Shown: in pieces, positions 32,538 through 40,172 of the stretch
Numbering within the stretch: position 1 is the first letter of the stretch
How the letters are laid out: each line of letters starts with the position of its first letter
NCBI GenBank assembly: GCA_028282805.1
Contig: JANQHD010000004.1
Span: 62,001-126,000 of the forward strand
Source: Phycisphaeraceae bacterium
Lineage (GTDB): Bacteria > Planctomycetota > Phycisphaerae > Phycisphaerales > Zrk34
Length of the DNA: 64,000 nucleotides
Direction of reading: 5' to 3'
The notes under the pieces: generated by a model
Database searches by the model: none
Seen by the model: the letters and a program-made list of their open reading frames with translations, nothing else
What the model was told of the DNA's origin: nothing
Position numbers and translations under genes: made by a program

Positions 32538-32690
32538 GCCGCTCGCCCCCTTTCACAAATAAGCTACGCCGACCGGCGGAGCGTGACCGTCGAGTTGAAA
32601 TGACATTATGGTCCAATTTGTTTGCGCTGGGTAGCGCCCGGGCCGGCGGGGGATTCAACGGATGGCCCCGCTTGGACCGATAAGCAGGGT

Positions 32691-34286
32691 ATGAAGCTCG
32701 ACGTTTACCGGAAAATCGTCGATACCGGGTCGCTGCGCGGCGTCGCCGACGAGCACCGCGCCGCCGGCCGCGTCGTCGTGCACTGCCACGGCTGCTTCGA
32801 CATCGTGCACCCCGGTCACGTACGGTACCTGCAATTCGCACGCCGACAGGGCGACGTGCTGGTCGTGTCGCTGACCGGCGACGACGCGATCGAAAAAGAA
32901 GACGGCACCCGCCCGTACATCCCCCAGGAGCTGCGGGCTGAGAACCTCGCGGCGCTCGAGTTCGTCGACCACGTCGTCATCGCCGACCAGCCCACCGCCG
33001 AGCCGATCCTCACCGAGCTGCGCCCCGACATCTACATCAAGGGCAAGGAATACGAGCACGCGACCCACCCCGGCTTCCTCGCCGAGAAGCAACTGGTCGA
33101 AGCGCACGGCGGGCGTGTGATCTTCTCGTCGGGCGACGTCGTGTTCTCGTCGACCAAGCTCATCACGCAACACGCGCCGGCGCTCGGCGGCCACGACCTG
33201 CCCGAAGCCGCCCGGCTCGGCGCGTGCTGCGACCGCTGGGGCATCGACCTCAACCGCCTCCGCCAACTCGTCGGCGAACGGTTCGGCGGCAAACGCATCG
33301 CGGTCGTCGGCGACGCGCTGGCCGACCGCTACGTCGAGTGCGAGCACGCCGACGTGGCCGGCGAAGCGCCGATCCTTTCGGTCAAGCCGATCCGTGAGAC
33401 GACGTACCTCGGCGGCGCGGCGATCATCGCGGCGCACCTCAAGGCGCTCGGCGCAGAGCCGCACCTGGTCACCACCGTCGCCGAAGACGGGCCCAGCGCC
33501 GAGCTGATCGACAGCGTCGACGCCATGGGCGTCGCGCAGAGCGTGTTCCCCGTGCACCAGGCGCTGCCGACCAAGCAACGCTTCCTCGTCGACGGCCAGA
33601 AGCTGCTGAAGGTCGACCGCGGCCAGACCAGCCCGATCGACACCGAAACCGAACGCCGGATGCTCGCCGTGCTGCACGACCTGCGCCACGGGCTCGACGG
33701 CGCGATCTTCACCGACTTCGGCTACGGCACACTCAGCATCCCCCTGCTCGCCCAGGCCATGCCGCTGCTGCGCCCGCACGTGCAAACCATCGCCGGCGAC
33801 GTCAGCGGCCACCGCCGCACGCTGCTGGCGATGAACGAGGCCGACCTGCTCACGCCGACCGAGCGCGAGCTGCGCGGCGTGGTGGGCGACTTCGACGAAT
33901 CGCTGCCCGCGGTGACCATGCGCGTCATGCAGCAACTGGGCGTGCCCAACGTCATCGTCACCATGGACCGGCGCGGCTGCGTGCTGTTCCGCCCGCGCGA
34001 AAACGATCGCGACCAGTGGTTCAACTCACGCCTGCGCAGCGAGTACTTACCGGCGCTGTCGCGCGTGCCCGTCGACCTGGTCGGCGCCGGCGACGCCCTG
34101 CTCGCGACCGCGACGCTGAGCATGTGCTGCGGTGAGCCGCTGCCCGTCGCCGGCTACCTCGGCTCGCTCGCCGCGTCGATCGCGATCGGCCGGCTGGGCA
34201 ACCTGCCGATCGACACCGACGATTTGTTGCACGCCGCCGCCGCCCGCCCCGAGCTGCAACACAGCGCCGCCACGCGCGCCGTGTAG
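32691..34286 (+). CDS. Adenylyltransferase-PfkB kinase fusion, HldE-like with reversed domain order
   Basis: 531 residues. Residues ~25-170 are a cytidylyltransferase-like domain with HCHGCFDIVHPGHVRYLQFA (HxGH at 40-43) and FSSGDVVFSSTKLI. Residues ~195-510 are a PfkB/ribokinase-family kinase with GGAAIIAAHLKALGAEP and the GAGD anion hole at ~466 (DLVGAGDALLA). E. coli HldE, which phosphorylates and then adenylates heptose for LPS core, has the kinase first and the adenylyltransferase second. Here they are swapped. The sugar is probably a heptose but other sugar 1-phosphates are possible. ATG 32691 chosen. Confidence 0.85.
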   Translation: MKLDVYRKIVDTGSLRGVADEHRAAGRVVVHCHGCFDIVHPGHVRYLQFARRQGDVLVVSLTGDDAIEKEDGTRPYIPQELRAENLAALEFVDHVVIADQPTAEPILTELRPDIYIKGKEYEHATHPGFLAEKQLVEAHGGRVIFSSGDVVFSSTKLITQHAPALGGHDLPEAARLGACCDRWGIDLNRLRQLVGERFGGKRIAVVGDALADRYVECEHADVAGEAPILSVKPIRETTYLGGAAIIAAHLKALGAEPHLVTTVAEDGPSAELIDSVDAMGVAQSVFPVHQALPTKQRFLVDGQKLLKVDRGQTSPIDTETERRMLAVLHDLRHGLDGAIFTDFGYGTLSIPLLAQAMPLLRPHVQTIAGDVSGHRRTLLAMNEADLLTPTERELRGVVGDFDESLPAVTMRVMQQLGVPNVIVTMDRRGCVLFRPRENDRDQWFNSRLRSEYLPALSRVPVDLVGAGDALLATATLSMCCGEPLPVAGYLGSLAASIAIGRLGNLPIDTDDLLHAAAARPELQHSAATRAV

Positions 34287-37320: not shown

Positions 37321-37390
37321 GACTCGGGACTCAAGACTCAAGACTCAAGACTCAAGACTCAAGACTCAAGACTCAAGACTCAAGACTCAA
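37321..37390 (+). repeat. Heptamer tandem array (GACTCAA)x9
   Basis: One variant unit (GACTCGG) followed by nine exact GACTCAA units. Seven-nt period, identical unit, 70 bp. The same heptamer reappears as about three units at 52566-52582. Confidence 0.95.
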
Positions 37391-37568: not shown

Positions 37569-37787
37569 TTACCCCGAGTTCGAACGCAATCCGTGCAGGC
37601 GGTCCTTCGCCTGCGTAGAAAGCTCAAGATCGGCAAAGGCGCCGCCCAGACGCCGGACCTTCACCAGCCGATCGTTTAACTCCAGGAGCTGACGATCGCT
37701 GATCGCGGCTGGATGCCAGTCGGGGTCGCCCGCGTCCATGCGAACGTCCGCCGTTTGAACTTGGTCCACCTGCGTACGGGGCGACAT
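37569..37787 (-). CDS. Small hypothetical protein downstream of mraZ
   Basis: 72 residues (start ATG 37787 with GAAGGGATT upstream). Features: a central basic region LLELNDRLVKVRRLGGAFAD and a possible helical end LSTQAKDRLHGL. No known family. It is 38 bp downstream of mraZ on the same strand, so probably cotranscribed. The usual downstream gene, rsmH, is not present. Confidence 0.55.
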   Translation of the reverse strand: MSPRTQVDQVQTADVRMDAGDPDWHPAAISDRQLLELNDRLVKVRRLGGAFADLELSTQAKDRLHGLRSNSG

Positions 37788-37825: not shown

Positions 37826-38326
37826 TCAATCCGACTGACCCTGATCGCCCGAGCGCATCACGCGCCGGGGGTTTGTCAACAGTTCGGGACGCTCGGCCAG
37901 CGTGCGTTGCTTGTGCTCGGCCCACTGTTGTCGGTCTCGGACCTGCATGTGGTCCTTCACGCCGATCAACACCACGTCGCGCCCCAGTTCTACGTCACGG
38001 AGCAACTGCTCCGGCAACCTGATTCGGCCCTGCTTGTCTAGCTCGACGTGCCGGGCGCTGGAAAACATGATCTCTTCGTAGGCGAGCACCTGGTCGGGCG
38101 GCAGCTCGCTGTCGTCGAGCTGCGCGGCGCGGCGTTCGAAGTCACGCTCGGTGTACAGCACGAGCGTCGGCCCGCCGCTGTCGATGATCGTGACGTAGAA
38201 GCCTTCGCCGTCCCGCTCGGCGTCGAGCCGCTTGCGGACCTCGGCCGGCAACGCGATGCGCTGCTTGGCGTCGATCGAATGCTCGTATGTGCCGGTGAAG
38301 AGCAAGGCATTGTTTCCCCCACGCAT
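37826..38326 (-). CDS. mraZ: Transcriptional regulator MraZ
   Basis: 166 residues. Two AbrB-like repeats: TYEHSIDAKQRIALPAEVRK near the start and ARHVELDKQGRIRLPEQLLR in the middle (the DxxxR sequence appears in each). MraZ binds its own promoter and is a repressor of the division and cell-wall cluster in several bacteria. Upstream are three repeats matching an MraZ box (38386-38415), supporting autoregulation. Downstream lie a small protein and, further on, rnd, not the usual rsmH-ftsL-pbp genes. Confidence 0.93.
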   Translation of the reverse strand: MRGGNNALLFTGTYEHSIDAKQRIALPAEVRKRLDAERDGEGFYVTIIDSGGPTLVLYTERDFERRAAQLDDSELPPDQVLAYEEIMFSSARHVELDKQGRIRLPEQLLRDVELGRDVVLIGVKDHMQVRDRQQWAEHKQRTLAERPELLTNPRRVMRSGDQGQSD

Positions 38327-38644
38327 CCGTGCGTGACGTGCTTAACGCGGCGCACCCACGCCCGCGTGTCCATGAATGGGAATCTATACCACTTTTCACC
38401 ACTCTGCAACACTTTTCTTTCCGATTAATTCAAGTTTCTAAGCCTGTCGATTCGCACCTTTTTCATCATCGGCCGCGTCGACCGATAAAGATCGAATTAT
38501 TGAGCCGTGATCGGGGCAACGCGCAAAAATGGCCGAATCGGGTGACGGCGTTGCTCGCGGTAAAGCGCTATCGCTGATGATTGCGTGCGTCGCGCCCGAT
38601 GATCAAACGCTCGACGCACGCGACGAGGGCAACCGAGCATTCGG
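38327..38644. other. Divergent-side region: mraZ promoter and spacer
   Basis: 318 bp. The first 90 bp are the mraZ promoter with three MraZ repeats. The rest, up to the end of the cytochrome gene, holds no recognisable gene; it is AT-richer around 38440-38500. Confidence 0.4.
38386..38415 (-). promoter_or_regulatory. MraZ box: three direct 10-nt repeats
   Basis: On the minus strand the order is AAAGTGTTGC, AGAGTGGTGA, AAAGTGGTAT, with exact 10-nt period. This matches the AAAGTG[G/T] MraZ box described in Mollicutes and the general 10-nt spacing of MraZ operators. A likely promoter overlaps it: -35 TTGCAG and -10 TAGATT, with a 17-nt spacer. Binding would block RNA polymerase. Confidence 0.85.
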
Positions 38645-40078
38645 CTAATCGGACCCGCCGAACTCGTCTTCAAGCCTGGGCGACCGCGTCAACGGCAACC
38701 GGCGCTCGACCAACACAAGCCCTTCCGCCTCGCCGAGCAAGCGGTTGCGCACGTAGACCAATCGGACCGTCGCGTGCTTGGCCGACTCGGGGATGGGCAG
38801 GCGGATCACGCGCCGCTCGCCGGGCGACAGGGCCGCCGACCGCCCTTCGACGTGGTCGAGTTCGGGCAGCCGGCCCGGCACCAGTTCGGCGGCCATGGTG
38901 CCCTTGGCGGCGTCAAAGCCGGCGTACACCCGTAGCGCTCGCCGACGCGTGCCCGTGGGGTAGTCGTGCCCCGCGAGGTTGGTCAGCGTCACGAGCAGTT
39001 GGCGAGTGGTTCGGTCACGTTCGGTGCTCAGCGACAGGCTCACGCCCCCCGCCAGCAGCGCCGGGTCGCGCCGCGCGGTCAGGTGGTGGGCGCGCCCGGC
39101 GGGGGTGTCGGGCATGTGGCAGTCGGTACACGTCTGCCGATCGCCGCGACGCTCGAGGTCGATCGCGCCCGGCGGCCAACTCGCCCGGCGGGGCTGTCGG
39201 CCGGTCAGCCACCGCCGCCACTGCGCCTCGGCCGCCGCGTGGCAGGTGGCGCACGCCACTTTTTGAGCTTCAAACTCGTACCGACACGCCCCGGGTTGTG
39301 GCGGCGCGGCCACCGACTTCGCTTCGTGGCACACGCCGCACGCGATGCCCCGCCGCTCGCCCCACGACCAGGCCACGGGCTGTCGGCTCGCCGGGTCGAC
39401 CGTGTTCAGCCGCAGGTGCGACAGCGACTGGGCGTGCGACGAGTCGGCCCACTGTTGCGCGATCGCGCCGTGACACGAAGCGCAATCGGCGCCGTCGGTC
39501 AGCGTATGGGTTGCGCTGCGCGCGTGGCAGGCGGCGCAGCGTTCGGCCAGCGTTTGCCCGAACTGCAGGTGTCGGTCGGCCGCGTAAACCTCGCAAAGCT
39601 CACCGGGCGCAACCGGCGCTTGGCGCTGCAGCCACGCCAGCACCGCGCGCTCGCGTTGCGCGAGCGGCGTGTCGCGCATGGGCAACGGTTCGACCGCGCC
39701 GCCGAGCTGTTTCAGCGCCCGGTAGGCCGCCGACCGCACGCGCCAGTCGCGGTCACTCGCACGCGCCAGCAGAAGCGCTTGCAAAGCCGCCGTCGGGCGC
39801 TCGGCCAACAGCTCGCAACACAACGCCCGCACCCGCGGGTCGGAATGCTCCGCCAAACGGGGCAGGTGTTCGACCATGCGCGGCCAATCCGCCGCCGCCC
39901 AGCGGCGCGCTTCGACAAACGCGCGTGTTTCAACGCGGTCGATCGCGATCAGCCACTCATCAAATCGCTCGTAAGCCGGCGCCGGCGGCGTGCGGACCGC
40001 CCACCACGCTGCGCCCAACAGGCCCAGCACCACGACCGCCAGCGCGATGTGACGTCGTTTCAGCAACGCAAGCCCCAC
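38645..40078 (-). CDS. Pentaheme cytochrome c with HEAT-like N-terminus
   Basis: 477 residues. A membrane anchor (HIALAVVVLGLLGAAWWAV), then HEAT-like helices (LPRLAEHSDPRVRALCCELL), then five CxxCH heme sites (CAACH, CASCH, CGVCH, CATCH, CTDCH), then a beta-rich domain with LTNLAGHDYPTGTRRRALRV. That last motif is the His-Tyr-Pro-Thr-Gly region of the cytochrome c554-like family. It should carry electrons in the periplasm. It faces, head to head, the gene unit that starts at 40255. GTG start; ribosome site weak. Confidence 0.85.
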   Translation of the reverse strand: MGLALLKRRHIALAVVVLGLLGAAWWAVRTPPAPAYERFDEWLIAIDRVETRAFVEARRWAAADWPRMVEHLPRLAEHSDPRVRALCCELLAERPTAALQALLLARASDRDWRVRSAAYRALKQLGGAVEPLPMRDTPLAQRERAVLAWLQRQAPVAPGELCEVYAADRHLQFGQTLAERCAACHARSATHTLTDGADCASCHGAIAQQWADSSHAQSLSHLRLNTVDPASRQPVAWSWGERRGIACGVCHEAKSVAAPPQPGACRYEFEAQKVACATCHAAAEAQWRRWLTGRQPRRASWPPGAIDLERRGDRQTCTDCHMPDTPAGRAHHLTARRDPALLAGGVSLSLSTERDRTTRQLLVTLTNLAGHDYPTGTRRRALRVYAGFDAAKGTMAAELVPGRLPELDHVEGRSAALSPGERRVIRLPIPESAKHATVRLVYVRNRLLGEAEGLVLVERRLPLTRSPRLEDEFGGSD

Positions 40079-40124: not shown

Positions 40125-40172
40125 GAAAGTTTCAGGCGATTGGTTCGTGAAAGTTTCAGGCCATCGGTTCGT
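40125..40172. promoter_or_regulatory. Two tandem 24-bp repeats upstream of the ExbBD/VWA/iron ABC unit
   Basis: 40125-40148 and 40149-40172 match at 22 of 24 positions. Each contains the inverted core GAAAGTTTC and ends in GGTTCGT. TATCAT at 40177-40182 is a plausible -10; if so, the second repeat covers the -35. This looks like a regulator binding site shared by the divergent cytochrome and the HEAT-to-ABC unit. Confidence 0.6.

Follow-up and report, generated by a model that had tools for sequence, protein, structure and literature searches.

The mraZ gene analysed here carries a true MraZ box and encodes a MraZ-family protein, yet it is an orphan, and what makes it of interest is less the box than the uncoupling from division genes. 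MraZ ranks with the most highly conserved regulators of bacteria, and its purpose is hard to separate from that of the division and cell wall (dcw) cluster that it heads. In the order Phycisphaerales (Planctomycetota), to which the host, correctly taken for a planctomycete in the initial annotation, belongs, mraZ is present in 58 of 61 genomes, never lies beside rsmH and has one canonical site per genome, amounting to a natural decoupling experiment. Coordinates refer to the window, that is, the whole stretch of 64,000 nucleotides that was analysed (Table 1).

Table 1 Features of the mraZ region, in window coordinates
Feature	Position	Strand	Remarks
MraZ box, three repeats (AAAGTGTTGC / AGAGTGGTGA / AAAGTGGTAT) at a 10-nt period	38386..38415	(-)	5' of mraZ; position kept in relatives
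Predicted -35 element, TTGCAG	38404..38409	(-)	Inside repeats 1-2
Predicted -10 element, TAGATT	38381..38386	(-)	End of repeat 3
mraZ	37826..38305	(-)	159 aa with the conserved TTG as start (166 aa with the ATG at 38326); Pfam PF02381
Conserved 72-aa protein	37569..37787	(-)	38 nt after the mraZ stop

Three GTG-core repeats with a 10-nt period lie 5' of mraZ, the arrangement of a MraZ box, and the core of the second repeat is AGAGTG, with one mismatch to AAAGTG. The array described in the initial annotation was recovered on the minus strand, with one site in the window for AAAGTG x3 at a 10-nt period and ≤3 mismatches compared with none in each of 100 dinucleotide shuffles. When the same pattern was run over the whole 3.9-Mb genome, a search that the annotation had proposed, two sites were returned: the mraZ box (1 mismatch) and a site on contig C29 (3 mismatches), whose box-matrix score is at background level and which was rejected as a second box. 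A relaxed search for GTGK x3 at 10 nt gave five sites in the same genome compared with four in a reversed control. The other four resemble chance matches within reading frames and were likewise rejected, one lying where a sulfatase-like reading frame begins (C10), one inside a long reading frame (C50:133549) and two in GC-rich frames (C45 and C50:45514). Judged by these pattern matches, the box over mraZ is the sole credible MraZ site in the host genome.

The repeats also hold promoter-like hexamers in a conserved register, as seen in the order consensus box, AAAGTGTTGC ATTGTGGGGC AAAGTGGGTTAnnnTCCCA. An alignment (A1) of 33 order boxes was made from 40 scored loci by leaving out the six weakest (L010, L012, L017, L026, L032 and L040) and a duplicate (L025) and keeping L043; the duplicate loci L023 and L045, and L007, where the start motif was not matched, had been excluded before scoring. 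In A1, TTG comes after the GTG of repeat 1 in 32/33 boxes, GG being usual at this point in repeats 2 and 3, and TAnnnT follows 17 bp beyond this TTG in 25/33, counts that are favourable because A1 dropped the weakest loci and its seed contained a -10. In a repeats-only control of 38 loci, TATAAT similarity peaks at the same spacing, with at least 4 of 6 matches in 16/38 loci compared with 8/38 at a one-repeat slip and at most 6/38 at all remaining shifts between -12 and +12; the -10 peak is weaker than in A1, yet kept. The host's TTGCAG and TAGATT, 17 bp apart, are weak hexamers, and a simple sigma-70 consensus scan called no promoter at the mraZ box. The shared TTG and TAnnnT register, with its peak kept in the repeats-only control, suggests that the repeats are most likely the core promoter of mraZ.

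Pfam identifies the gene below the box as mraZ, in agreement with the initial placement of the repeats over the likely mraZ promoter. Its product scores 76.5 bits (cut-off 23), with two domain copies and both halves found. The score for the NCBIfam equivalog TIGR00242 ('division/cell wall cluster transcriptional repressor MraZ') is below the cut-off (81 compared with 98.35 bits), and on these profile scores the protein is classed as a MraZ-family member, not as a proven dcw repressor. A DXXXR motif in each half is a mark of the family, and both are found in the translation (DAKQR and DKQGR). Family members are also marked by DNA-binding, ring-shaped oligomers; solved structures among the sequence relatives of the host protein are 1n0e, 9qlg, 9sx6 and 9qlr. 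The gene evolves under purifying selection (dN ~0.18 and dS ~1.36 against the congener G001). Translation probably starts at the TTG at 38305 rather than at the upstream ATG, because a start codon occupies the very same position in most relatives, two codons before the F of 'FTGTYEH'; GGGGGA lies just 5' of this TTG.

As initially annotated, a 72-residue protein is encoded after mraZ. Its gene directly follows mraZ in 8/9 genomes of the host's family, no match better than E = 0.007 was found elsewhere in the 61 genomes, and 12 residues are invariant among eight of the proteins; by this conservation the ORF is real. Constraint on the gene is modest (dN 0.23, dS 0.40 and dN/dS ~0.57 against a congener), searches of Pfam, NCBIfam and PDB gave no relative (best E 0.6 in the PDB profile search), and the predicted fold consists of two helices at moderate confidence (mean pLDDT 72.6). 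The gene probably shares a transcript with mraZ. In other Phycisphaerales families no 72-residue gene was seen, and csrA and nifU often lie downstream of mraZ in convergent orientation. The placement after mraZ, the lack of a clear copy elsewhere and the invariant residues would fit a functional pair in which the small protein, as partner, cofactor or antagonist of MraZ, is the real output; we hold this reading only tentatively, as the gene is confined to one family, with mraZ standing alone elsewhere in the order, and shows the modest constraint and the lack of database relatives given above.

Several neighbouring genes and repeats were recorded. Directly upstream of mraZ (38645-40078 (-)) lies the gene for a protein of 477 aa that combines HEAT repeats with a multihaem, cytochrome c7-like part, and just 5' of this gene the 24-mer GAAAGTTTCAGGCCATCGGTTCGT occurs in two tandem copies (40125-40172). 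Nine perfect GACTCAA 7-mers (37328-37390) lie between the 72-residue gene and a ribonuclease D-like gene. In two relatives' loci, a flavin reductase gene is divergent from mraZ (L039 5179-5703 (-) and L041 114-851 (-)); the reductase frame is present in 14 among the other compared loci, and so mraZ and the reductase may have a common control region at those loci. Two bifunctional kinase/cytidylyltransferase proteins have opposite domain order, with cytidylyltransferase first in the window copy (32622-34286 (+)) and PfkB first in the copy beside lpxK at the rsmH locus (L115 14308-15894 (-)).

Loss of linkage to the dcw genes extends across the order. Of the 61 Phycisphaerales genomes 60 have rsmH, and mraZ and rsmH are neighbours in 0/57 genomes with both genes; in 45 of the 57 the two are on separate contigs, and in the remaining 12 a single contig carries both, with a distance of 465 kb or more between them. 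In a phylum-wide sample, MraZ was found in 175/199 genomes. Outside the order, rsmH was searched in 80 MraZ genomes taken from the upper part of the match list, skipping G201 and G170, and found in 78; mraZ lies within 2.5 kb of rsmH in 75 of these 78, the exceptions being G144, G161 and G245, the last possibly a contig-end effect. The 75 include 5/5 genomes from the same class outside the order. Because adjacency holds in 75/78 genomes elsewhere in the phylum compared with 0/57 in the order, the separation is a trait of Phycisphaerales, not of planctomycetes in general. A literature search that covered few subscription papers returned no report of solitary mraZ in Phycisphaerales, and the accessible sections of PMC12283558 do not treat solitary mraZ in Phycisphaera.

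In the host, rsmH is on a contig other than that of mraZ (C20), where mreB and an unassigned frame precede it and a LysM protein and an FtsI-kind transpeptidase follow, which bears out the earlier observation that division and cell-wall genes do not lie downstream of the box. The LysM-domain protein (L115 8130-9152 (+)), between rsmH and the ftsI-like gene, occupies the place of ftsL in E. coli, and related frames are found at the same place in four other order genomes compared. A Tubulin/FtsZ profile had no match in the host genome compared with a match in 13/14 control genomes, so FtsZ was rejected as a hidden MraZ target; FtsZ absence is reported for the phylum in the available portions of PMC12283558 and PMC5147048.

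The box is conserved in register across genera of Phycisphaerales and was searched in 61 genomes (the host and 60 relatives, all from the order). With R1, a sequence-only model of A1, all 50 matches at E ≤ 0.01 are upstream of mraZ; at E ≤ 5 an upstream match is present in 54/58 mraZ genomes, and the weaker matches, with E up to 5, are divided into 10 at mraZ and 43 elsewhere. None of the three mraZ-less genomes (G025, G036 and G045) has any R1 match. Upstream of mraZ, R1 matches are lacking in G013, G019, G024 and G030, among which G019 carries a perfect array together with a different promoter and G024 seemingly has no array. R2, a repeats-only model from 32 order boxes and the E. coli box, placed all 33 matches at E ≤ 0.01 and all 38 at E ≤ 0.082 at mraZ in the same 61 genomes (hand count). 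Elsewhere in the phylum, 17/40 mraZ-upstream regions with rough start positions matched at p ≤ 0.01, and because of those rough positions we make no claim on box strength outside Phycisphaerales. We note that L044, labelled Rhodospirillaceae, has a box and MraZ start equal to those of the planctomycete L045 and is probably a mislabelled metagenome bin.

Canonical boxes were found at mraZ and at no other division or cell-wall gene. In none of the 61 genomes did an R1 match at E ≤ 5 fall within 15 kb of rsmH, under the stricter filters used for more than 40 genomes, which lose weak sites. The initial annotation had suggested looking for boxes at rsmH, ftsI or mur genes; none is present within the 19 kb read around the host's rsmH and ftsI-like gene, where the best box-matrix score is 0.8 (own box, 34.7; training boxes, 21.7 to 47.2), and the best score over six rsmH loci is 2.4. 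The mur genes were covered through the genome-wide box searches rather than located one by one. As far as sites go, the question of what MraZ controls, left open in that annotation, has largely been settled, its own promoter alone being detectable. MraZ might still control scattered dcw genes at sites whose degeneracy, shorter length or different spacing let them escape these searches, as M. gallisepticum MraZ binds an HsdC motif with a 1-nt difference in its spacer (PMC5282649, in the part available), which points to tolerance of altered spacing, and as several genomes have weak box matches of the kind that the filters lose. We consider such control unlikely in view of the lack of R1 matches near rsmH, the gap between 2.4 and the training minimum of 21.7, and the relaxed GTGK search with its similar reversed control. 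That the repeats are a chance occurrence or a purely historical relic is highly improbable, for while their present function in the host is predicted from sequence, they have no match in the shuffles, are conserved in register across genera and are missing from the three mraZ-less genomes.

We regard direct negative autoregulation by promoter occlusion as the likely mechanism, with MraZ detached from division genes and a canonical-site regulon consisting of mraZ (and, in the host's family, the 72-residue protein). A MraZ oligomer is predicted to contact the GTG cores of the three in-phase repeats, which would fill the -35 to -10 space of the mraZ promoter and exclude RNA polymerase. Occlusion is expected because the site lies between -35 and -10, and would give negative feedback; a box inside the predicted core promoter makes this a simple, testable model. 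In Phycisphaerales, mraZ has split from the dcw cluster with the operator staying at mraZ, and as the operator was kept there and was not found at rsmH and ftsI, the detectable canonical-site regulon has shrunk to mraZ itself. In the host's family, a small co-transcribed protein of 72 residues would have been added to the output of the regulon. We infer MraZ binding and repression, the co-transcription of the two genes and any further role of the small protein from sequence. Canonical boxes on division genes do not explain why Phycisphaerales retain MraZ; one possible but speculative answer is a role apart from dcw transcription, in which a closed autoregulatory loop, with the core promoter as operator, sustains a MraZ that acts via protein partners (the 72-residue protein in the host's family) or as a general DNA-associated protein.

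Autoregulation of this kind is consistent with characterized systems, in which MraZ proteins bind repeats of this sort and act as repressors, according to the accessible parts of PMC8475190, PMC5282649 and PMC7761207. The host resembles E. coli in having three GTG repeats with a 10-nt period over mraZ. The E. coli K-12 box and that of the relative L028 share ATTGTGGGGCAAAGTGGG, 18 identical nucleotides, and the E. coli box has 7 contiguous nucleotides in common with the host's own. E. coli MraZ is described as a transcriptional repressor of itself and dcw (PMC8475190, available text). However, the E. coli box begins 5 nt past the -10 (TTGACA-17-GTAAAC, hexamers read by eye), a downstream position that the available portion of PMC7761207 also gives for E. 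coli and B. cenocepacia, whereas that of the host lies between -35 and -10, and rsmH-ftsL-ftsI directly follow mraZ in E. coli, whereas no dcw gene follows it in the host. In B. cenocepacia, a fragment with 7-nt repeats and 3-nt spacers was bound by MraZ in EMSA (PMC7761207, same portion); its box differs in having four repeats that overlap the dcw start site, with the dcw operon downstream. The Mollicutes box, (AAAGTGK N3)x3 in Mycoplasma gallisepticum and M. genitalium, has the same repeat core and period as the host. The initial label 'Mollicutes type' proved too narrow, as AAAGTGK occurs in other bacteria (two perfect copies at 10 nt in 8/66 non-planctomycete mraZ-upstream loci) and the L028 box shares its 18 nt with E. 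coli; a horizontal, Mollicutes-like origin of the box was rejected, since E. coli and genomes across the order have the same repeats. In M. genitalium, as in the host, the only MraZ site is over mraZ (PMC8475190 and PMC5282649, as far as their available text states). There, however, mraZ heads mraW-MG_223-ftsZ, so that the single site still controls division genes, whereas the mraZ of the host stands without them.
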